DNA from: a candidate division CSSED10-310 bacterium
Lineage (GTDB): Bacteria > CSSED10-310 > JAFGDC01
Reading direction: 5' to 3'
DNA length: 21,747 nt
Assembly (NCBI GenBank): GCA_016932295.1
Contig: JAFGDC010000177.1
Location: 1 to 21,747 of the forward strand
The position numbers and the translations under genes were made by a program. The notes beneath the pieces are model-generated. The model ran no database searches. It had not been told where the DNA came from and was given only the letters and a program-made list of their open reading frames with translations. The stretch's first letter is position 1. Each line of letters opens with the position of its first letter. This document shows positions 6,486 to 17,899 of this stretch, in pieces.

Positions 6486-8018
6486 CTACCAGGAACTCCC
6501 CAGGGCGCCGATCTCACCCGTGACCTCATCCAGCAACGTGCACATGCGCATGGCTTCCGTCATGTTGTTGTGATCAGGAAACAGGGGACGGTCCTCATCC
6601 AGATGGGCCACGACCTTTCGGACAGCACGACGGCCGGCTTCAGTGCCTCGGCCGAAGTTGAACGTCCGAAAATCCAGACCCTGAGCGGCGGCGATGGCTT
6701 CGATACCCAACACGCTGTTGGCGTTGTTGAGGATTTGCCTGGTTTTTAAAGCGGTATTCATCCCCATGCTGACAAAATCTTCCTGATCCGCCGCCGCAGG
6801 GATGGACTGCACGCACGCAGGCATCGACAACGTACGCTGCTCGACGATCAGCATGCCGGCCGTGTACTGGCTCAACATAAGACCGGAAAACATACCGGCG
6901 CCCTTGGTAAGGAAGGCCGGCAGCCCCACACTCAAGGCCGGATTCAGCAGGCGGTTGAGACGGCGCTCGGACAGGACGGAAATCATGCAAATCGAAGCGC
7001 CGACCATATCGAGGGGCAGACTGATCGGCGTGCCCTGGAAGTTCGCGCCGGTCAGAACGAGGTTCTCCTGGGGAATGAAGATCGGGTTGTCTCCCACGCC
7101 GTTGATTTCAACCTCGAACTGGGCACGGGCATACGCCAGATGATCACGGGCGGCACCAATGACCTGGGGAGTCGAGCGCATGGAATACGCATCCTGCACC
7201 TTGACCTTGAGCTTCCCGGTCTGCAGGTCCGAACCATTGATGATTTTCATGATGTTGTTCGCGCAGGTCACCGCCCCCTTGAAGCCACGCAGTTTGTGAA
7301 GGCGCTGGTCATATGGCTTGAGATTGGCCAGCAGCGCCTCCAGTGTCATCGCCGCGACTATCTCGGCCTGCGATATCCACCGTTCCGCGTCGTACACCTC
7401 TAGGCATCCCATGCCGGCGATCACATTGGAGCCGTTGATGGTTGCCAGTCCATCACGCGCCAACAGGCCCGGGACTGGTATTCCGGCCTTTTCCATTGCA
7501 TTCTTGGACGGCATTCGTTCGCCTTCAAAAAATGCTTCACCCTCGCCCATCATGAGCAGGGCGATCTGGCTCATGGGAGCGAGGTCACCGCACGCACCGA
7601 CGCTGCCCTTCTCGCACACTACCGGCGTCACCCCACGATTGAGCAGTTCCACGAGGGTTTCGGTTATCTCCCGCCGGCAGCCGGAATTGCCGTGACAATG
7701 TACATTTATCCTGGTGGCCATGGCGGCTCGCACCACCTCTATTGGAAACGGTTTGCCGATACCAGCGGAATGATTGTAGATCAGATACTTCTGGAACTGT
7801 TTCACCTGATCGTCAGTCAACACCACTTCGGAAAATTCACCGATTCCGGTGTTGACTCCGTACATGATCTCCCGCGCCTCGATCTTCTTGTTGAGCAAGC
7901 CGCGACAGGTATTGATCCTGTCGATGGCAGTGCCGCTCAATGCTACCTTTTCACCATGTCTGGCGATGTTTACGACATCTTCGATCTTGAGACTGTATCC
8001 ATCAAGTACTACCGTCAT
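6486..8018 (-). CDS. MIO-family aromatic/histidine ammonia-lyase-like enzyme with Cys in the cofactor triad
   Basis: This 510-residue protein is the usual length for bacterial histidine ammonia-lyase (HAL). The family uses a 4-methylideneimidazole-5-one (MIO) group made from an Ala-Ser-Gly loop to eliminate ammonia from, or isomerise, aromatic amino acids or histidine. The loop sits in K-G-S-V-G-A142-C143-G144-D-L-A-P, so the middle Ser is Cys. Numbering coincides with Pseudomonas putida HAL (Ala142-Ser143-Gly144). Other active-site positions are present: Y53 in Y-G-V-N-T-G, H83, N195, Y278, R281 and Q412-E413. It differs from HAL at N82-H83 (HAL has SH), at ANFQGTPI (HAL: GNFHGE; plant PAL has NFQGTPI) and at QEDFVSMG (HAL: QEDHVSMG). 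Substrate is therefore uncertain: it may be an aromatic lyase, an aminomutase or a HAL. No hutU, hutI or hutG genes are nearby. ATG at 8018 has GGAG 8 nt upstream, plus its own promoter at 8179-8206. Confidence 0.9.
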   Translation of the reverse strand: MTVVLDGYSLKIEDVVNIARHGEKVALSGTAIDRINTCRGLLNKKIEAREIMYGVNTGIGEFSEVVLTDDQVKQFQKYLIYNHSAGIGKPFPIEVVRAAMATRINVHCHGNSGCRREITETLVELLNRGVTPVVCEKGSVGACGDLAPMSQIALLMMGEGEAFFEGERMPSKNAMEKAGIPVPGLLARDGLATINGSNVIAGMGCLEVYDAERWISQAEIVAAMTLEALLANLKPYDQRLHKLRGFKGAVTCANNIMKIINGSDLQTGKLKVKVQDAYSMRSTPQVIGAARDHLAYARAQFEVEINGVGDNPIFIPQENLVLTGANFQGTPISLPLDMVGASICMISVLSERRLNRLLNPALSVGLPAFLTKGAGMFSGLMLSQYTAGMLIVEQRTLSMPACVQSIPAAADQEDFVSMGMNTALKTRQILNNANSVLGIEAIAAAQGLDFRTFNFGRGTEAGRRAVRKVVAHLDEDRPLFPDHNNMTEAMRMCTLLDEVTGEIGALGSSW

Positions 8019-8368: not shown

Positions 8369-10879
8369 TTACAGGTCCCGTCGTTCTTCCGGGAATAACT
8401 CTCTCAACCGCCTGTCGGCTTCAGTCTCATGCTGAGTACCAGCGAACTCCTCCCTGATTTGCGCAAGGGTCTCACGAGCGCCGGGCAGGTTGCCGCGTCG
8501 CACCCTTGTCTCGACGAGTTCAAAGAGCAGCCAGCGCCGCAATCCACGGTCAGTGACATGAGCCAGCATCTGGTTCAATTCGTTTTCCGCCGCTTCCTGC
8601 TGTTCCGTTGACTTGAGCAGGTTGTACAAACCAGAATGGCCCTTGAAAGCCACCATCGGCTGGGTGGCATAGGTGTCTATGATATTCCGGAAAATCGCTT
8701 CGGCCTCCTCACGCCGGCCCTGTTCCTGCATGATATGGGCTTGCCCTTCGAGGGCACGGGCGCGTTGCTCCGCTCGTTCAGCCATGCCGGCTATCTCATT
8801 GTACAGATCCATGGCTTCCTGGGATTTCCCCAGGCGGCGCAACAGCTCGGTCTTGCCGAACAAGGCATCCATCACCAGTTCTGTATCCCCGGCGTATTGT
8901 TTCTGGATCCTGTCGTAGATCCGCATTGCGGCTTCCGTGTCACCCGCCTCCGATTGAATTTCGGCCAGCCGCCGCAGGGCAAAGGAACCCTGGTTGCCGC
9001 TGTGTGAATCATCGGCGATCGTGGTGAGAATCTCTATCGCTTCGGCACGCGAACCTTTCCTGAGAAGGAGGTTGGCGATACTGACCAAGGCATTGTTGGC
9101 ATTCCAGTAATCATTACGCGCCAATGCCTTGCGATGGTTGATCCGAAACATTTCTTCCGCCCGTGACAGGTCGCCGCTCTCTATGTGCATGTGCGCGAGA
9201 TTGTCTCGAGCCCAATTCGCTCGCACCGGATCGTCCGTCGACCGTTCTATTTCCTGGTACAGAGCCATTGCGTCCTCTCGCCGGCCATTGGTCCGCATCA
9301 ACGGCGCCAGGAGTGTTTTGATCTCTTCCGGTTCCTTTTCCAGGGTAGCAAACCGCACAAGAGCCTCCTGATACAACCCGACAGCCTCATTCAACCTGCC
9401 ACGCTGTTGCAAACTCTGGCCCTTGCCGCGGGTCGCCACCGCTCTGGTCAGCTCACTTGATCCGTTGGTGATCAGGCTGTTGAAGATGCGCTCGGCGATA
9501 TCAAATTGAGACTCGTTCCGGTACATTTCCGCCAGTTGCATGAGAAGAGAATCTGTTTCCTGATCGACGGTGACGAGTATGGTGTCCTCATTTTCAAGGA
9601 AGCGCTGACGGGCTTGTTGTTTTTCTCCCACCTCGAACTGCGCGCGGATAAGATCCACGAATGTGCGCAGGCGGTCCGGTTGCGTGGCGGCATCCCGGAG
9701 CAGGTTCTCGAAAATTTCCACGGCGTTCCGGCTGTCGCTGGTTTTCAATTGGACCTTGGCAAGGAGTTTCCTGGTTTCCATGACCCGCTCAGGTGATTCC
9801 CTGAAGACTTCGAGCATCTGCTCCAATACATCCTGTGCAGCCTGCCAGTTTTCCATGGCTTCATATACGGTCGCGGTGGATCGCATAAGCCAGAATCGAT
9901 GCTCGATATTGGCCGGGTCAGTCTCGAATCCGGCCATGATGCCAAGCAGCTTTTCGAACTGCCGGCGATTGAAGAGTAAGTCGAAGATGCAATAGTGTGC
10001 CGGGAGGATCACGGTGAACTCACCATCGGCATCCTCCAGCGCTTTGCGGCAGTAATCCAGTGCTTCATCGGTCCGTTTCAAGCCTTTCAATGCATTCCCC
10101 ATATAGAGAAACATCCTGGCCCGTTTCCGTAAATCCTTGCTGAATTGAACACTGCCTCGTTTCGCCAGTTCCAGCACCTTCGCATGCTGGTTCTGACCCA
10201 GTAACTGGTCGAGATGCAGCACAAAAGACGAAAAATCCCAGTTATCGGGATTGGTCCGTATGGAATGGATGCTCATTCCGATGGAAACCACCGACAACAT
10301 GACCAGGATGAGCAGTCCGAGCCGGGCGTAGGATGCGGCGGTCATGCCAGTCCCCTTGAACTGAGCGCCGCCAAGATGGCCGGTATCCCTGAGATGAGGA
10401 TCGAATGTGCAACCATGTGCCGACATGCCATGCAGAACGGCACCATCGAAGTGGCTCCCACGGAGGTCGCAGTTCCAAAGCTGGCTGTTCCGGAGCGAGG
10501 CATGTCTGAGATCAGCGCCGGTCAGATCGCAGTCCCGCAGCCGGGTATCATCGGCATCTGCCGAGGTCATGACGGCACCCTTCATGCCGCAGCGGATGAA
10601 TTGAGCGCCACACAAACGGCATCGGGATACATCAACGCCGTCGAGGCGGCAGTCGGTGAATCTGCAGCGCCGGAGATCAGCGCCGGCGAACCGCGCCTCA
10701 CGCAGATCGACATTCTCGAATTCGGTGGCCCGCATTTTCAGGCCTGTGGCATCGATTCCGCGCAAGTCTGCACCGGAAACTTTCCTGCCGCGCACCAGAT
10801 CGCCGGCGGACATGGTGTTCGCCGAGCCGTTCTTGACGTCCGTATCATGAGATCCGGACCGATCAGTCCCTCTCATCAT
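8369..10879 (-). CDS. Pentapeptide-repeat / single transmembrane / TPR protein
   Basis: This is an 836-residue protein. The ATG at 10879 follows GTGAGGAG with 5-nt spacing; a second ATG follows immediately. Residues about 36-175 are pentapeptide repeats with the A(D/N)LXX pattern (A37-D-L-R, A67-D-L-R, A122-D-L-R), which fold into a right-handed beta-helix. Residues 187-204 form one hydrophobic membrane helix. From about 225 to the C-terminus the protein is a long series of TPR-like helical pairs, including F-(X)-L-G-x-Y type motifs and repeats with A-(x)6-Y/F spacing. The likely topology is a cytoplasmic beta-helix, one membrane span, and a large periplasmic TPR solenoid; this is inferred, since there is no cleavable signal. 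TPR solenoids bind proteins, so the protein may link a cytoplasmic partner to a periplasmic one. It has its own promoter (10940-10969). Function is unknown. Confidence 0.8.
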   Translation of the reverse strand: MMRGTDRSGSHDTDVKNGSANTMSAGDLVRGRKVSGADLRGIDATGLKMRATEFENVDLREARFAGADLRRCRFTDCRLDGVDVSRCRLCGAQFIRCGMKGAVMTSADADDTRLRDCDLTGADLRHASLRNSQLWNCDLRGSHFDGAVLHGMSAHGCTFDPHLRDTGHLGGAQFKGTGMTAASYARLGLLILVMLSVVSIGMSIHSIRTNPDNWDFSSFVLHLDQLLGQNQHAKVLELAKRGSVQFSKDLRKRARMFLYMGNALKGLKRTDEALDYCRKALEDADGEFTVILPAHYCIFDLLFNRRQFEKLLGIMAGFETDPANIEHRFWLMRSTATVYEAMENWQAAQDVLEQMLEVFRESPERVMETRKLLAKVQLKTSDSRNAVEIFENLLRDAATQPDRLRTFVDLIRAQFEVGEKQQARQRFLENEDTILVTVDQETDSLLMQLAEMYRNESQFDIAERIFNSLITNGSSELTRAVATRGKGQSLQQRGRLNEAVGLYQEALVRFATLEKEPEEIKTLLAPLMRTNGRREDAMALYQEIERSTDDPVRANWARDNLAHMHIESGDLSRAEEMFRINHRKALARNDYWNANNALVSIANLLLRKGSRAEAIEILTTIADDSHSGNQGSFALRRLAEIQSEAGDTEAAMRIYDRIQKQYAGDTELVMDALFGKTELLRRLGKSQEAMDLYNEIAGMAERAEQRARALEGQAHIMQEQGRREEAEAIFRNIIDTYATQPMVAFKGHSGLYNLLKSTEQQEAAENELNQMLAHVTDRGLRRWLLFELVETRVRRGNLPGARETLAQIREEFAGTQHETEADRRLRELFPEERRDL

Positions 10880-11040: not shown

Positions 11041-12981
11041 TCACTCCTCCAGCAGACCGCTCAGAATACGACCGCGCACCAGGTGAGTTGCCGCTTCAAT
11101 GTCCTTGTACAGAGGACGATCCCGATCCAGGAAGGGAATTTCCCGCCGGATGATCGAACGGGCCTGGTCACACCGCGGCGCGACCCGTAAAGGTGCGCGC
11201 AGGTCCATGCCTTGAGCGGCGCAAAGCAGCTCGATGGCAACGATAATCTCGACATGTTCGAGAATTTGCCGGGCCTTTCGAGCGGAAATAGTGCCCATGC
11301 TGACGTGATCCTCGGTGTTGGCGCTGGTCGGGATCGAATCGACGCCAGCAGGATGCGCCAGGCACTTGTTCTCGGAGACGAGCGCGGCCGCGGTGTACTG
11401 AGCCAACATGAAGCCGCTGTTGCTGCCGCTGGTGAGTACCAGGAACGCCGGCAAGCCATTGCTCACGTTCTGATCAACCAGGTGAGCGATCCGCCGCTCG
11501 GCGATGCTGCCGACCTCGGCGAGAGCTATGGCCAGATAATCCATGCACAGCGCAATGATCTCGCCATGGAAATTACCGCCTGAACAGACGGCTGCCTCGA
11601 GCTGCTCCCGGTTCAGCTTGCTCCGGTATTCCTCCAGACTGCCGGCAGCCATGTCCGGGGGAAAGATGAGTGGATTGTCGGTGGCGGCATTAATTTCTAT
11701 GGTTACCACCTGCGCGGCATGCTCCAGAGCGGCGAGAGCGGCGCCAAGGACCTGTGGGGCACAACGGAAAGAATAGTCATCCTGTACCGGTTGAATATCC
11801 GGCAGCATTCCGCTCAGCAGTTGCACGCCCATTTTGAACAAGGACTGCAGCCGCTTGTCGTCGGTTTCCTGCCTGGACCAGAGTGCGACCAGGTGTTTGA
11901 TATGGGCGGCGATGGTGCGCCGCCACTGCGAGACAACGGGCATTCTGAAGCCGACAGCCTGGTGTTCGGACGCGAGAGCGTTGCACCAACTCCTGATTAC
12001 ATCACGCAACTCGATGATCTCCGCCAACCCTTTTTCCGGGGGCAGATAGTCCTGCAACGAATCGAGCACATGTATCAACTGCCCTGCCATGCCGAAATTG
12101 ATCGGAATGTTGAGCACCTGGCTGCCCTGCAGCATCCTGCGGAGATTTGCCGCCACGTCGATTTGACCTTGATGGGGACGCACCTCATGAACACGTGCAT
12201 CCAGTGCATAGGTGACCGCCTTGATGGCTTCATAGCTCATGGCGCACGCGACCTGTGCGGTCTTCATCAGGGCCCGGGCATCGCTGATGGTGAGCGCCGC
12301 GATGGCGGTCATCACCTGGGTGCCGTTATTGAGCGCCAAGCCCTCCTTCGCTTCCAGGATCACCGGCAGGGTGGCCGGAAGCCGGGCATCGCCCTCTTTC
12401 ACTGGCGTGAACGCATGGCGCGGCACGCGTTCCAGATAGACACCAGGCCGCGCGGGCGCCGGCTCATCCTGCCGTGTACCGCTGTAGATTTCACCCTTGC
12501 CGGTGAGGACGAGAGCCAGATGGGACAACGGGGCGAGATCACCACTGGCACCCACGGAGCCCTTCTCGGGAATGAGGGGGAAGATGCCGTGATTGACGAG
12601 ATCAGCCAGCGCCTGCACGGTATCGGAGCGAATGCCGGAATACCCCTTGGCCAATGTGTTCAGCCGCAGCAGCATGATGGCGCGGACCACGTCCTCGGGC
12701 AATGGATCACCCACGCCGCAGGCATGACTCTCGATCAGATTCTGCTGCAGAGCGCCGGTAATTTTCCTCGATATCCTGACATGACGCAGAGCGCCGAAGC
12801 CGGTGGTGAGACCATAGACCACATCCTCCGCATGCAGCAGCCGGTCTATTACCGCACGGCACCGATCCATGGCCTGAATCGAGGCATTGGAAAGGAGCAC
12901 GCCAACACGCTGCCTTGCCACCAGCTCGACGGTGGCGATATCAAGCGAGGAGCCATCGATTTCAACCGAGGAAACAGGCAC
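11041..12981 (-). CDS. hutH: Histidine ammonia-lyase-like MIO enzyme, long form with inserted helical segment
   Basis: This is a 646-residue protein with a GTG start at 12981 preceded by a GAGGGGGG ribosome site. HAL deaminates L-histidine to trans-urocanate. The MIO loop is intact: G-S-V-G-A145-S146-G147-D-L-A-P-L-S-H. Other catalytic features are Y56, the S85-H86 pair typical of HAL, N218-N-G-T-Q, Y403-S-F-R406 and T-S-A-N-T-E-D-H-V-S-M-G, where HAL usually has NQEDH. Typical bacterial HALs are about 510 residues. The extra length is an insertion at about residues 291-397, between R-R-M-L-Q-G-S and the Q-D-D-Y-S-F-R block, rich in helix-forming sequence. It is 36 nt downstream of the TPR gene and so probably in the parA operon. 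Histidine is the favoured substrate by motif, but no other Hut pathway gene is present. Confidence 0.85.
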   Translation of the reverse strand: MPVSSVEIDGSSLDIATVELVARQRVGVLLSNASIQAMDRCRAVIDRLLHAEDVVYGLTTGFGALRHVRISRKITGALQQNLIESHACGVGDPLPEDVVRAIMLLRLNTLAKGYSGIRSDTVQALADLVNHGIFPLIPEKGSVGASGDLAPLSHLALVLTGKGEIYSGTRQDEPAPARPGVYLERVPRHAFTPVKEGDARLPATLPVILEAKEGLALNNGTQVMTAIAALTISDARALMKTAQVACAMSYEAIKAVTYALDARVHEVRPHQGQIDVAANLRRMLQGSQVLNIPINFGMAGQLIHVLDSLQDYLPPEKGLAEIIELRDVIRSWCNALASEHQAVGFRMPVVSQWRRTIAAHIKHLVALWSRQETDDKRLQSLFKMGVQLLSGMLPDIQPVQDDYSFRCAPQVLGAALAALEHAAQVVTIEINAATDNPLIFPPDMAAGSLEEYRSKLNREQLEAAVCSGGNFHGEIIALCMDYLAIALAEVGSIAERRIAHLVDQNVSNGLPAFLVLTSGSNSGFMLAQYTAAALVSENKCLAHPAGVDSIPTSANTEDHVSMGTISARKARQILEHVEIIVAIELLCAAQGMDLRAPLRVAPRCDQARSIIRREIPFLDRDRPLYKDIEAATHLVRGRILSGLLEE

Positions 12982-13017: not shown

Positions 13018-13641
13018 TTAAATGTCCCGCGGTCGATTGCGGGATTGAAAAACGTCTTCGCCGAACGATTGCGCCAATCGCGGATCCAGTAAAACCGCAC
13101 GTTCATAAGCCGACATGGCCTTGTCTGGCTTACCGATCTTGTAATACATGGCGCTCAAGTTGTTCCAGGCGTCCACATCTTCCGGATTGAGTGTGACCAG
13201 ACGTTCGTAATGCATGACCGCGGTTGCCGGTTGGCCGACGGCTTCGTACGCCAGCGCCAGGTTGTAACGGAAATTGAGATCCTCCAGTATCTCCAGCGCT
13301 TTGATGTACTGCACGATGGACATTTCCGGATCTCCCTGCTTGAAGGCCTGAGCTGCCTTGCGGGCTGACTTCAAGGCGGATTCCCGCATTGCATCGAAAT
13401 CGGTCAAAGGATCGAAGATGCCTTTCTTGGCTTCCTTGAGAAGTTGCCGCAAAGCCGACAGTAAATTCTCTTCCGGTTTCAAACGCAATCGAATGATGAC
13501 TTCATCACCTTCCCTCGTGGCAACGCCGCGCGAGAAGTCCACCACCACATCCTGTTCATTCTGCAGCCTCGTGGTTCTGCGGAAAATTGCATCTATACCC
13601 TTGCCCAGTACATTTTCTTCCGAGCCTTCAACATTCGGCAC
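13018..13641 (-). CDS. TPR protein with Spo0J/ParB-like N-terminal ParA-interaction motif
   Basis: This is a 207-residue protein. The GTG at 13641 follows GGAGGT with 5-nt spacing and overlaps the end of parA by 14 nt, showing translational coupling. Residues 12-20 read L-G-K-G-I-D-A-I-F. In ParB/Spo0J proteins the N-terminus carries a very similar L-G-K-G-I-N-A-L-F or L-G-R-G-L-x-A-L motif that contacts ParA and stimulates its ATPase. Residues about 31-55 look beta-rich, 58-77 helical, and about 88-190 form three TPR units (88-121, 123-156, 157-190). There is no ParB nuclease-like or helix-turn-helix domain. It probably acts as a ParA adaptor that binds a protein through its TPRs; this is inference. 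The protein is cytoplasmic, with no signal or membrane segment. Confidence 0.85.
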   Translation of the reverse strand: MPNVEGSEENVLGKGIDAIFRRTTRLQNEQDVVVDFSRGVATREGDEVIIRLRLKPEENLLSALRQLLKEAKKGIFDPLTDFDAMRESALKSARKAAQAFKQGDPEMSIVQYIKALEILEDLNFRYNLALAYEAVGQPATAVMHYERLVTLNPEDVDAWNNLSAMYYKIGKPDKAMSAYERAVLLDPRLAQSFGEDVFQSRNRPRDI

Positions 13642-14407
13642 TGAGCACCTCCTTGGCGAGATCGCGGTAATCCCTGGTCCCATTCGAATCACTGGCGTAG
13701 AGATTGATCGGCAACCCATGACTGGGCGCTTCGGCGAGCTTGATGTTCATGCGGATGATTGAGTCGTAGATCTTGTCCCGGAAGTAACGCTTCAACTCTT
13801 GAAGAATCTGCTCACAGAGCTTGGTGTTGCTCTGGTACAAGGTCACGAGAATCCCTGCCAGACGCAGATCCGGATTGAGCCGCTTCTGCACGATCTTGAT
13901 GGTGTGCATAAGCTGACTCATGCCTTCCAAGGCGTAGAAATGCGCCTGCACGGGTATGACCACCTCCCTGGCGGTGGTCATGGCATTGAGCGTCAACAAT
14001 CCCAACGATGGCGGACAGTCCAGCACCACGTAATCATAATCGTCGATGGCCGCCATGATCTTCTCGCGTAACAGAATCTCGCGGCCGATCGCGTTCACCA
14101 ACTCCACCTCGGCACCGGAAAGATGAATGGTGGAAGGAATCATCTTGAGATTCGGCTGGGGAGTGTCTTGCACTACATCGTCGACCTCCAGATCCGGATC
14201 GATGAGCAGGTGGTACACAGACCGTTTCAGATCCTCCGAGCTGATACCGAGACCGATGGTGCCATTTGCCTGAGGATCCAGATCCACCAGCAATACACGA
14301 CGACCCGCCTCGGCAAGGCAGGCGCTGAGATTGATCGCCGTGGTGGTCTTGCCGCTTCCGCCTTTCTGGTTTGCTATGGCGATGATCTTCGGGAGCGAAT
14401 TGCCCAT
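13628..14407 (-). CDS. parA: ParA/Soj-type partition ATPase
   Basis: This is a 259-residue protein. ATG at 14407 is preceded by TAGGAG with 5-nt spacing. An ATG 15 codons upstream lies almost on the predicted transcription start and has no clear ribosome site. The deviant Walker A box is N13-Q-K15-G-G-S-G-K20-T-T, with the signature first Lys and Ser where Val is common. Walker A' is V-D-L-D-P-Q and Walker B is V-V-L-D-C-P-P-S-L-G. The A-E-A-P-S-H-G motif marks it as close to chromosomal Soj. ParA dimers bind DNA nonspecifically when ATP-bound and are released by a partner's N-terminus. By eye-alignment with B. subtilis Soj, the DNA-binding arginine R189 corresponds to N194 and R218 to K223. 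There is no ParB gene next to it; the partner position is taken by the TPR gene. Confidence 0.9.
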   Translation of the reverse strand: MGNSLPKIIAIANQKGGSGKTTTAINLSACLAEAGRRVLLVDLDPQANGTIGLGISSEDLKRSVYHLLIDPDLEVDDVVQDTPQPNLKMIPSTIHLSGAEVELVNAIGREILLREKIMAAIDDYDYVVLDCPPSLGLLTLNAMTTAREVVIPVQAHFYALEGMSQLMHTIKIVQKRLNPDLRLAGILVTLYQSNTKLCEQILQELKRYFRDKIYDSIIRMNIKLAEAPSHGLPINLYASDSNGTRDYRDLAKEVLSAEC

Positions 14408-14970: not shown

Positions 14971-14999
14971 TGACATTCCCATGGTTATCTCATACAGAA
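14971..14999 (+). promoter_or_regulatory. Possible promoter of the M6 metalloprotease gene
   Basis: TTGACA (14971-14976) is a perfect -35; the hexamer 17 nt later is TACAGA (14994-14999), which matches only 3 of 6. Transcription from here would give a leader of about 128 nt before the ATG at 15134. The -35 is strong but the -10 is weak. Confidence 0.35.
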
Positions 15000-15133
15000 G
15001 ACAAGGTACTATTATGGGCTGTCATGTTGGTTCGTGCTTCCATGGTTCATCTCGAATCATCCGCAACGGACGTTCAGCATGCGCGGGAAAGAACACGGTA
15101 GTGGCAATCAATCAAAACAAGGAGACTAACCGT

Positions 15134-17899
15134 ATGCATCATCTGTTTACACGAATCCTGCTCGTTTGTGTGGTGGCGGTGGCTGGCGCCGCGATCGGAG
15201 TGAAAGCGGTGGCGCCGGTCCCCGGCACGTACGATCCGGTCACCATGACCTTCTACGAGAATGGTCTCAAGGTACCGATCGTGCAGGAGGAGGCCGGAAC
15301 GGTGAACAAGACATTGACCCGCAGCACCCTGAACACGATCGTGCTGCTGCAATGCGCCTCCGACCAGACCTGGACGTATCCGTCCAGCGATTTCGACGAC
15401 ATGCTTTTCACGGACCACACCTATGCCACGGGAAGCATGCGTGATTACTACGAGGAGGTTTCCTACGGCCAGCTCATGCTGGAAGGCACGGTAGCCGGCT
15501 GGTACACCGCGGCCAATACCTATGCCTATTACACCGGAGGTAATTACGGATTCGATCCTGACGGCCATGCGACAGAATTCATCCGGGAGGCCATTCAGAA
15601 TGCCGATACGGATGTTGATTTTGCGCTTTTCGATAATGATGGCGACGGTGTTGTTGAAGGTTTGATCGTTGTGCACCAGGGTCCTGGAGGTGAAGGCGGC
15701 AATCCCAACCAGTTCTGGTCACACAAGGGCTGGCTGAGTCCGCCCGAACAGGTGGACGGGGTTGAGATCAGCGAGTACAACCTCGATCCGGAGCGTAAGC
15801 CGCATGGTCCCATCGAAACCATAGGCGTGTTCTGCCATGAGTTCGGTCACACCCTGGGTGCGCCCGACCTTTACGACACCGATTATACTCCCGGCTGCGA
15901 TCCTGTCGGCCGTTACGGCGTGATGTGCAGCGGCAGTTACAACGGGCAACCGGCGGGCGCCAATCCGGCGCACTTCATGGCCTGGAACAAGGTCTTGTTC
16001 GGATGGCTCGAGCCGACAATCATAGTCGCGCCTCAGAACGGTCTGCCCCTTGTCGACGTGAAGATGATCAACAACGCGCAGGCCTGCTACCGGCTCCCCA
16101 TCGCCAACAGTCCCGATGAACACTTCCTGGTGGAAAACCGATGGGTGGATTCCCCCGCGTATTTCGATCAGCGCGGCACCGGGTACGACTCCGGCGCCCT
16201 GCTGACGCATTGCCATGACAACGGCAGCAGCGCCAATGAACCGTTTCACTGCTTCCTGCGCGATCCCGATCCAGACCATCCGGACCACAAGAACGCCGCC
16301 TACTGCGCTGAAGATGGACAGACCGAATGCACTCCTTACACCGCCGTGGATTCCGACGGCTACTACCTACCCAGTGGCATCTACTTCAAGAACTTCAGTA
16401 CTTCCGGCGCCAACATGACCTTCGATGTGGACCTCAAGCCGGTATTCATTTACAACCACATGGATCTTACGGTGCCGCAGAGCGGCGGCGAATACCAGAT
16501 GGCGGTCACGGTGCAAAACAAGGCATACAATGCCACCAACATCACCGCCACCCTGAGTTGCAGCTCCAGCCAGGTCACCATCACCAAGGCATCCGCGAAC
16601 TACCCCGATATCGCCAACGATGCCACCGGCGCAAACACCACAGACACATTCACGTACACCGTGAATGGATCGGGCCCCAAGGGTGAAATCGCCGTATTCA
16701 CTCTGAACTTCAGTGCCAACAGCGTCAACCTCGATTATACGCCCGTCTCCTTCGCGGTCATCGTCAATACGAGCCCGATCCTGTTCGTCGATGACGACCA
16801 GAATCAACGATGGGTGCCGGAAGCCATGGAGGTCTACTTCACGGAAGCGCTGGATGGCACTGGTTATGACTATGATGTCTGGGAGAATGCTGCCTACCTG
16901 TCGCATCCGGAATACGCGAATTTACAGCAGTACGACATCGTAGTCTGGAACACCGGCTCTGGGTACAACAAGGCCATCAGTGAAGAAGAACAGGTCACCC
17001 TCGGCCAGTATCTTGATGCCGGCGGTTACCTGTTCATCAGCTCCCAGGAATATCTGTATCAGGAGTATGGCTATCCCGACGGTGAAGACTGGGTAGCGGC
17101 AACAGTTCCCGGTGAATTTGCCCACGACTACCTGCATATCGCCTCATTGGAACAGGATGAGTATTACTACCACGTGTTCGGCGTGGCTGACTGCCCACTT
17201 ACCACGGGCATGAACGTGGCATTGACCGATCACATTTCCGACGATCCCACCGGTTCGAGCATCGAGACCGGCGGATACGATTGGTGGCCGGACAATATCC
17301 TGCCCGATGCCACTGCCCAGGCGATATTCACGGCAGAATCCCACAACTATCCCACTGGCATGCATCCCGACTACTTCGAGACCGGCACCGACGAGATTGT
17401 CGAAGGCCCATGTGCCCTGATGTATCCCAAGCCAGGCACCACCGCCGACTACAAGGTCATCTTCCTCGCCTTCTCCTTCGAAGGCATGCCGCTCACCGAC
17501 CGGGTGACACTTCTCACCAACTCGATCAACTGGTTCAACGGCGCCATGACCGACGGCATCTCACTGCAAATCAACCAGAACATGTTCACTTCCGGTGACC
17601 AGTTCGTACTGGGCGCCACCATCCGCAACACCAACGCCACCCCCGTCACCGTGGATGAATACATCGTCCTCGATATCTGGGGAACCGCCTACTACTTCTG
17701 GCCGAGCTGGACCATGGATCTGGAGTTCAACACCACCAACCTGAACGCCTACGAGTCCCGTTCGCAGGCAGTACTCAGCTTCCCCTGGCCGGACGGCGCC
17801 GGAGAAGCCGACGATATCAAGTTCTGGGGAGCCCTCCTCCACACCGGCACCATCGAGGTTTTCGGTGACTTCGACTACGTGAGTTTCGGCTGGAACTAA
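15134..17899 (+). CDS. Secreted M6-family metalloprotease with Ig-like and GATase-like C-terminal domains
   Basis: This is a 921-residue protein. ATG at 15134 follows AAGGAGA and begins a signal peptide (charged start, hydrophobic L-L-V-C-V-V-A-V-A-G-A-A, probable cleavage after residue 26). The catalytic domain holds H235-E236-F-G-H239-T-L-G-A-P-D245, the HExxHxxGxxD zinc site of M6 (immune inhibitor A-like) peptidases. The Met-turn is at Y-G-V-M264-C-S. D167-N-D-G-D-G resembles a calcium loop. Residues about 437-545 form an Ig-like domain (M-A-V-T-V-Q-N-K-A). About 549-800 begins I-L-F-V-D-D-D and resembles the class I glutamine-amidotransferase-like domain often fused to secreted proteases. 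About 809-921 is another beta domain. It likely degrades extracellular protein. No T9SS C-terminal sorting tail is seen. It is convergent with a glycosyltransferase gene. Confidence 0.9.
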   Translation: MHHLFTRILLVCVVAVAGAAIGVKAVAPVPGTYDPVTMTFYENGLKVPIVQEEAGTVNKTLTRSTLNTIVLLQCASDQTWTYPSSDFDDMLFTDHTYATGSMRDYYEEVSYGQLMLEGTVAGWYTAANTYAYYTGGNYGFDPDGHATEFIREAIQNADTDVDFALFDNDGDGVVEGLIVVHQGPGGEGGNPNQFWSHKGWLSPPEQVDGVEISEYNLDPERKPHGPIETIGVFCHEFGHTLGAPDLYDTDYTPGCDPVGRYGVMCSGSYNGQPAGANPAHFMAWNKVLFGWLEPTIIVAPQNGLPLVDVKMINNAQACYRLPIANSPDEHFLVENRWVDSPAYFDQRGTGYDSGALLTHCHDNGSSANEPFHCFLRDPDPDHPDHKNAAYCAEDGQTECTPYTAVDSDGYYLPSGIYFKNFSTSGANMTFDVDLKPVFIYNHMDLTVPQSGGEYQMAVTVQNKAYNATNITATLSCSSSQVTITKASANYPDIANDATGANTTDTFTYTVNGSGPKGEIAVFTLNFSANSVNLDYTPVSFAVIVNTSPILFVDDDQNQRWVPEAMEVYFTEALDGTGYDYDVWENAAYLSHPEYANLQQYDIVVWNTGSGYNKAISEEEQVTLGQYLDAGGYLFISSQEYLYQEYGYPDGEDWVAATVPGEFAHDYLHIASLEQDEYYYHVFGVADCPLTTGMNVALTDHISDDPTGSSIETGGYDWWPDNILPDATAQAIFTAESHNYPTGMHPDYFETGTDEIVEGPCALMYPKPGTTADYKVIFLAFSFEGMPLTDRVTLLTNSINWFNGAMTDGISLQINQNMFTSGDQFVLGATIRNTNATPVTVDEYIVLDIWGTAYYFWPSWTMDLEFNTTNLNAYESRSQAVLSFPWPDGAGEADDIKFWGALLHTGTIEVFGDFDYVSFGWN

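Follow-up and report, generated by a model that had tools for sequence, protein, structure and literature searches.

What does a Soj-type ParA ATPase act on when the gene that follows it encodes a TPR protein which has the N-terminal tip of a ParB and the body of something else? The question is raised by two overlapping genes on the minus strand of the 21,747-nucleotide stretch of DNA analyzed here (the window), for which the original prediction proposed a candidate system for the positioning of protein cargo. The evidence considered below comprises the domain layout of the partner, the conservation of its tip, the gene order at control loci, the peptide pocket of the ParA and its clade, the searches for further partners and the neighboring genes.

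The ParA Gene and its Partner

The pair and its elements are as follows.

13628..14407, minus strand, parA of the Soj type (259 aa; ATG start; AGGAG 5 nt upstream; deviant Walker A motif KGGSGKT)
13018..13641, minus strand, TPR partner (207 aa; GTG start)
13628..13641, minus strand, overlap of the parA end and the partner start (14 nt)
13648..13654, minus strand, AAGGAGG resembling a ribosome-binding site, within the parA 3' end and 6 nt before the GTG
13582..13608, minus strand, ParB-type ParA-binding tip LGKGIDAIF, partner residues 12–20 (motif as defined in PMC12462528)
13567..13611, minus strand, run of 15 residues identical to the relative P0005, residues 11–25
13426..13548, minus strand, part predicted to form three beta-strands and one helix, residues 32–72 (model of moderate to low confidence; no Pfam match)
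13087..13398, minus strand, three TPR helix pairs, residues 82–185 (Pfam, model and fold search)

The first gene was expected to encode a Soj-type ParA and does so: it has the KGGSGKT motif, and its best solved relative by sequence is 8ray (E 5.9e-74), the structure of Myxococcus xanthus ParA (PMC12462528), with 1wcv matching at E 1.7e-62; these are features of the ParA of ParABS systems. The translational coupling claimed for the two genes keeps the support of the 14-nt overlap and of the AAGGAGG ahead of the GTG, from which we infer that the partner is coupled to parA.

According to its sequence and a predicted model, the partner (P0003; P0001 designates the same protein with one extra leading residue) consists, in this order, of a tail (residues 1–29), a beta/helix part, the TPRs and a short end. 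The tail is predicted to be disordered (pLDDT<50), the beta-strands are predicted at residues 32–36, 39–44, and 47–52 and the helix at 60–72, the ten-residue block means of pLDDT being all below 75 ahead of residue 80, and residues 82–198 match general TPR folds in a fold search. A second model with P0005 as the first sequence returned the same order of elements; as both models were built from the same two sequences, they are not independent. P0005 shares some of the beta/helix part, in the pattern V.F..G..TR.G.E..IRL..KP.

In Pfam searches of P0001 (E<=0.01) TPR families alone exceed their cut-offs, BTAD and DUF6584 staying below theirs, and there is no match to ParB_N, HTH_ParB or a chemoreceptor family; neither ParB_N nor HTH_ParB matches P0005 at E<=0.001. 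The control ParBs of loci L007 and L014 match both ParB families with E 1.6e-34 or better. The earlier statement that the remainder of the protein is TPR and not ParB is borne out as regards the ParB domains and is too broad as regards the TPRs, which extend only over residues about 82–189, residues 32–72 being predicted as beta/helix.

The ParB-Type Tip

The Spo0J-like tip announced for residues 12–20 is found there as LGKGIDAIF, so that the partner carries the N-terminal LG[KR]G-type tip of ParABS. A loose form of the tip pattern appeared within the first 40 residues in 7 of 1,000,000 whole-protein shuffles, and the strict form in none. The motif of M. xanthus ParB spans aa 11–19, inside an unstructured tail (1–35), and five of its positions have been shown to be important (L11, R13, L15, L18, and I19; PMC12462528); these correspond to L12, K14, I16, I19, and F20 of the partner. 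About half of chromosomal ParBs have a lysine at the central tip position, and lysine in place of arginine gave weaker stimulation in M. xanthus (PMC12462528). The net charge of partner residues 1–29 is -1; other activators have a basic N-terminus.

One full-length relative of the partner was found, P0005, which is identical to P0003 in 80 of 207 columns. Their longest identical run, the 15 residues spanning the tip, was equaled in 8 of 200,000 column shuffles; the next longest is 4, and identity outside the tip run is 34%. The two proteins have eleven 5-residue words in common, all within this run, so conservation of the tip was a condition of finding P0005; the contrast between tip and rest nevertheless argues for constraint on the tip. 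These comparisons support the assignment of the tip as a ParA-binding motif of the ParB type, which is the same in both known members. P0005 and the ParA P0029, which is identical to the window ParA (P0002) at 169 of 258 residues, each come from a contig of 5,773 bp with one and the same source label, and thus probably share one contig and adjoin.

The Position of parB

A match to the window ParA at E<=1e-60 was present in 35 records of a plasmid collection, of which 12 were listed and six chosen as control loci (L007–L012; ParA 46.6–52.9% identical to that of the window). In all six, the gene directly after parA encodes a tip of the LG[KR]G type (LGKGINALF, LGKGLDALI, LGRGLSALM, LGRGLDAVF, LGRGLDALL, and LGKGLAALL, respectively); it is annotated as ParB/RepB/Spo0J in five and was recognized as ParB by eye in the unannotated L008. 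According to the annotation, parA runs into parB by 29 nt in L007 and by 11 nt in L010, compared with 14 nt for the window pair; gaps of 20, 11, and 5 nt separate the two genes in L009, L011, and L012. Among 39 viral ParA loci one (L014) has a tip-bearing open reading frame, which adjoins the ParA and encodes an ordinary ParB. Given the order of the six control loci, the partner stands where parB would be expected and has the tip of a ParB, though not its body, and it seems that a TPR module has taken the place of the ParB body here.

The ParA Clade and its Peptide Pocket

Relatives of the window ParA were taken as the best 120 of 7,998 scored candidates. Twenty of these (P0025–P0044) are 61–75% identical to it and score 344–418 bits, the remaining listed rows reaching at most 323 bits; the closest among the best 120, P0025 (75%), lies on a 37 kb contig, and P0026 belongs to candidate division CSSED10-310 by source name, so that the window, judged by its ParA and this name, probably comes from that division or close to it. 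In a tree of 37 of the 120 rows, the 21-member ParA clade and the long-branched P0045 form a single 100/100 branch, in which P0002 and P0025 are sisters (98/96).

The 21 members were compared with the 99 other listed ParA rows, mostly of one Soj type, and differ from them at positions which are otherwise nearly invariant. S51 is replaced by I, E156 by H and N196 by K in every member, and V18 by S in 20, R220 by M in 19 and P219 by R in 20, the usual residue being retained in 98 of the 99 other rows in each case except P219 (93 of 99). The Walker A motif reads KGGSAK in 14 members, KGGSGK in six and KGGAAK in one, the last glycine being replaced in most of the clade; of the 99 other rows, 97 have KGGVGK. 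Position 194, usually the Arg of the QxSRTN loop, is G in 19 members, N in one and K in one; in Soj, residues R194 and N196 are presumably in contact with DNA. K223 of the window ParA, a position occupied by K in 12 members and R in nine, aligns with M. xanthus R238, whose change to E abolishes non-specific DNA binding (PMC12462528). With G at position 194 in most members, K for N196 and K or R at 223, the DNA-facing side of the protein appears altered, yet its charge is not lost.

The pocket for the ParB peptide lies in the following stretch.

13877..14107, minus strand, ParA stretch with the ParB-peptide pocket V101, E102, L135, L137, L140, I172, and L177

In M. xanthus ParA the ParB motif is accommodated by V116, L150, L152, L155, L187, and L192, and the arginine of the motif contacts Y81, E82, D110, and E117 (PMC12462528). 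Alignment with 8ray equates the former with V101, L135, L137, L140, I172, and L177 of the window ParA and the latter with Y65, H66, H95, and E102. The six pocket positions are hydrophobic, and Y65 and E102 invariant, in all 21 clade members, which supports the view that the window ParA retains a pocket matching the tip. Histidine occupies position 66 in 19 members and position 95 in 20, with D in the remaining two and one, respectively; a role of H66 and H95 as a specificity switch was considered and rejected, as the solved Soj chains 1wcv and 6iub likewise have Y-H.

Searches for Further Partners

Four matches were obtained with phmmer of P0003 among 450 candidates (E<=0.001), namely the window protein, P0005 and two TPR-only proteins, and 21 with a profile search of 2,619 candidates (E<=0.01), in which the tip occurs in the window protein and P0005 only. 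These searches would overlook partners whose tip differs or whose length exceeds about 362 aa and, since relatives are findable only through identical tip words, the rarity of the pair is not established. Scans of genome contigs and viral contigs gave no further partner, and a clade-specific DNA pattern was absent from the viral contigs. P0029 is the only one of P0025–P0044 whose contig apparently recurs among the 21 matches; no partner match lies alongside P0025 (37 kb contig), P0026 (175 kb), P0032 (188 kb) or P0044 (2.97 Mb). The lack of partner matches beside most ParA relatives can be explained by the limits of the searches or equally by true absence. The call for further tip-bearing TPR proteins next to ParA genes has therefore been answered in part, by P0005, apparently together with P0029, and by no other.

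Partner residues 1–29 are so short a query that searches with them are uninformative: tblastn returned two plasmid records at E 10 and one phage record at E 5, the latter within a gene noted as M.TseIB, and phmmer found nothing among PDB sequences at E<=10. The complete P0003 matches 46 plasmid records at E<=0.01, all with less than 60% identity; the features annotated in the 20 listed are for the most part TPR proteins or hypothetical ones, and two of the 20 span most of P0003. None of the literature matches listed describes a TPR partner that bears a tip of the ParB type, which is weak evidence given that subscription journals are mostly uncovered.

Neighboring Genes

The gene downstream of the pair is the following.

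11041..12981, minus strand, gene of an aromatic/histidine ammonia-lyase-like protein (646 aa; 36 nt downstream of the partner)

Judged from the spacing, this gene is possibly in the same transcript as the pair; there is no reason to name its product as the cargo. The protein has ASG, and a second histidine/aromatic ammonia-lyase-like protein (6486–8018, minus strand, 510 aa) has ACG, at what we take to be the cofactor triad, and in the 646-aa protein an insertion separates two lyase stretches. Between the lyase genes (8369–10879, minus strand) is encoded a protein of 836 aa with N-terminal pentapeptide repeats, a long TPR array and, by eye, an apparent membrane helix at about 186–206. Upstream of parA, on the opposite strand (14981–17899, plus), lies the gene of a large protein with an M6-type (immune inhibitor A-like) peptidase domain. 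No cargo gene is evident in the window, the lyases and the pentapeptide-TPR protein naming none.

No site with up to three mismatches to what we take as the parS consensus occurs in the 21,747 bases of the window, and none of the four neighboring proteins scanned with Pfam is DNA-binding. Two sigma70-like sites were found (1.6 expected), and there was no Rfam match at gathering thresholds.

Relation to Known ParA Systems

Like chromosomal ParABS systems (Soj/Spo0J; M. xanthus), the pair combines a Soj-type ParA that has a peptide pocket with a partner whose disordered N-terminus bears an LG[KR]G-type tip, the genes following each other in the parA-parB order with a short overlap; in contrast to those systems, the partner matches neither ParB_N (CTPase) nor HTH_ParB, and no parS-like site was found in the window. 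Since the ParB domains were tested for and are absent, the pair is not a ParABS member. It looks like a putative ParA/activator positioning pair, and two features of such cargo-positioning systems, K or R at the DNA-binding position (K223) and a conserved pocket, are each present in 21 of 21 clade ParAs.

Activators of ParA/MinD ATPases are described as modular, a basic N-terminal peptide being grafted onto diverse interaction domains, and TlpT and McdB are named as having a basic N-terminus (PMC7993993). PomZ-PomX of Myxococcus resembles the present pair in having a short N-terminal activating peptide on a protein-interaction scaffold and a protein cargo, and differs in that the PomX body polymerises and in the type of its 22-residue tip; HEAT repeats are present in PomY, which activates through its C-terminal region (PMC7993993; PMC13170346). 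In PpfA-TlpT of R. sphaeroides, too, a nucleoid-located ParA-like protein is paired with a partner for protein cargo; however, TlpT is a chemoreceptor and part of the cargo, and the window partner has no chemoreceptor family match. PpfA is described as spread over the chromosome and non-dynamic. McdA-McdB, which serves carboxysomes, also couples a ParA/MinD ATPase to a non-ParB partner for protein cargo.

The pair fits the modular-activator rule as published for PomX, TlpT, and McdB. The positioning reading of the original prediction is upheld in part, at the level of sequence, by tip, slot and pocket, and is less new than it seemed, modular activators being already in print (PMC7993993). The novelty lies in a motif of the chromosomal ParB type being carried by a TPR protein whose gene takes the position of parB.

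Proposed Mechanism and Alternatives

On balance, it is probable that parA and the TPR gene form a ParA-driven positioning pair which arose by exchange of the ParB body and whose partner carries a protein cargo; most likely the partner would activate the ATPase and serve as a cargo adaptor on the ParA gradient. The nucleoid would be coated by ATP-bound ParA dimers, the tip would turn the TPR protein into an ATPase-activating partner of ParA, and the TPR module, perhaps with the beta/helix part, would bind a protein cargo or give rise to a multivalent assembly. The cargo may then follow the ParA gradient, being moved or spaced by the ParA on the nucleoid. ParB stimulation is strongest when two tips are brought together (PMC12462528), and the TPR protein would accordingly have to assemble with itself or bind a multivalent cargo, in all probability. 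At its origin, a TPR module would have been swapped for the ParB body at the parB position, with about the first 20 codons kept. What the sequence itself shows is a tip that is conserved in one relative, a ParA pocket, a gene order and a lack of ParB domains; from these we infer binding, ATPase stimulation, nucleoid binding, the carriage of cargo and the exchange. A parB slot filled by an ATPase-docking tip and a scaffold suggests a machine which positions protein cargo and not DNA.

Alternatively, the ParA could be the chromosome-segregation ParA, with a canonical ParB elsewhere, the TPR protein borrowing the pocket as a side partner in order to anchor ParA at a landmark or tune its ATPase. 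The pocket looks able to take ordinary ParB tips and most ParA relatives brought no partner match, as this would have it; we nevertheless hold it to be rather unlikely, because parA and parB adjoin in all six control loci and here the partner occupies that very slot, and because the ParA clade stands apart from ordinary Soj (in a 100/100 branch with P0045) and has changed near-invariant positions such as V18 and N196. It is quite unlikely that the chromosomal parB itself was rebuilt in this lineage through loss of its CTPase clamp and DNA-binding body in favor of a TPR scaffold with the tip, either directing ParA to a protein assembly in place of the origin or moving the chromosome, with no ParB clamp, by way of a separate DNA-binding protein bound to the TPRs.

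A split ParB, in which the TPR protein links ParA to a separate centromere-binding protein for DNA segregation, would agree with the gene position and tip of the partner and with the fact that TPRs bind protein partners. On the archaeal plasmid pNOB8 ParA is joined to AspA through ParB (PMC9178275). The lack of a parS-like site in the 21.7 kb window and of a DNA-binding protein among the four scanned neighbors makes such a link distinctly improbable in the present case. That the tip is a functionless relic of gene replacement might be argued from P0005 having been findable only because its tip is identical, yet a tip run conserved at 15 of 15 residues against 34% outside it leaves this notion with very little credit. 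Least of all can the pair be put down to chance or a mis-called start, as a single contig and a GTG start might invite: the motif is in register in P0005, apparently on the contig of ParA P0029, the tip is rare in shuffles, and a ribosome-binding-like site precedes the GTG.

Significance

If the positioning reading is true, the pair would be a natural case of a chromosomal ParB docking tip on a non-ParB body at the parB position, and would offer a direct test of the tip alone as a portable address tag for ParA. It would also test whether a swap of the partner body redirects a chromosome-type ParA to protein cargo, and would amount to a small two-part positioning kit, made up of an ATPase of 259 aa and an adaptor of 207 aa that contains a TPR module.
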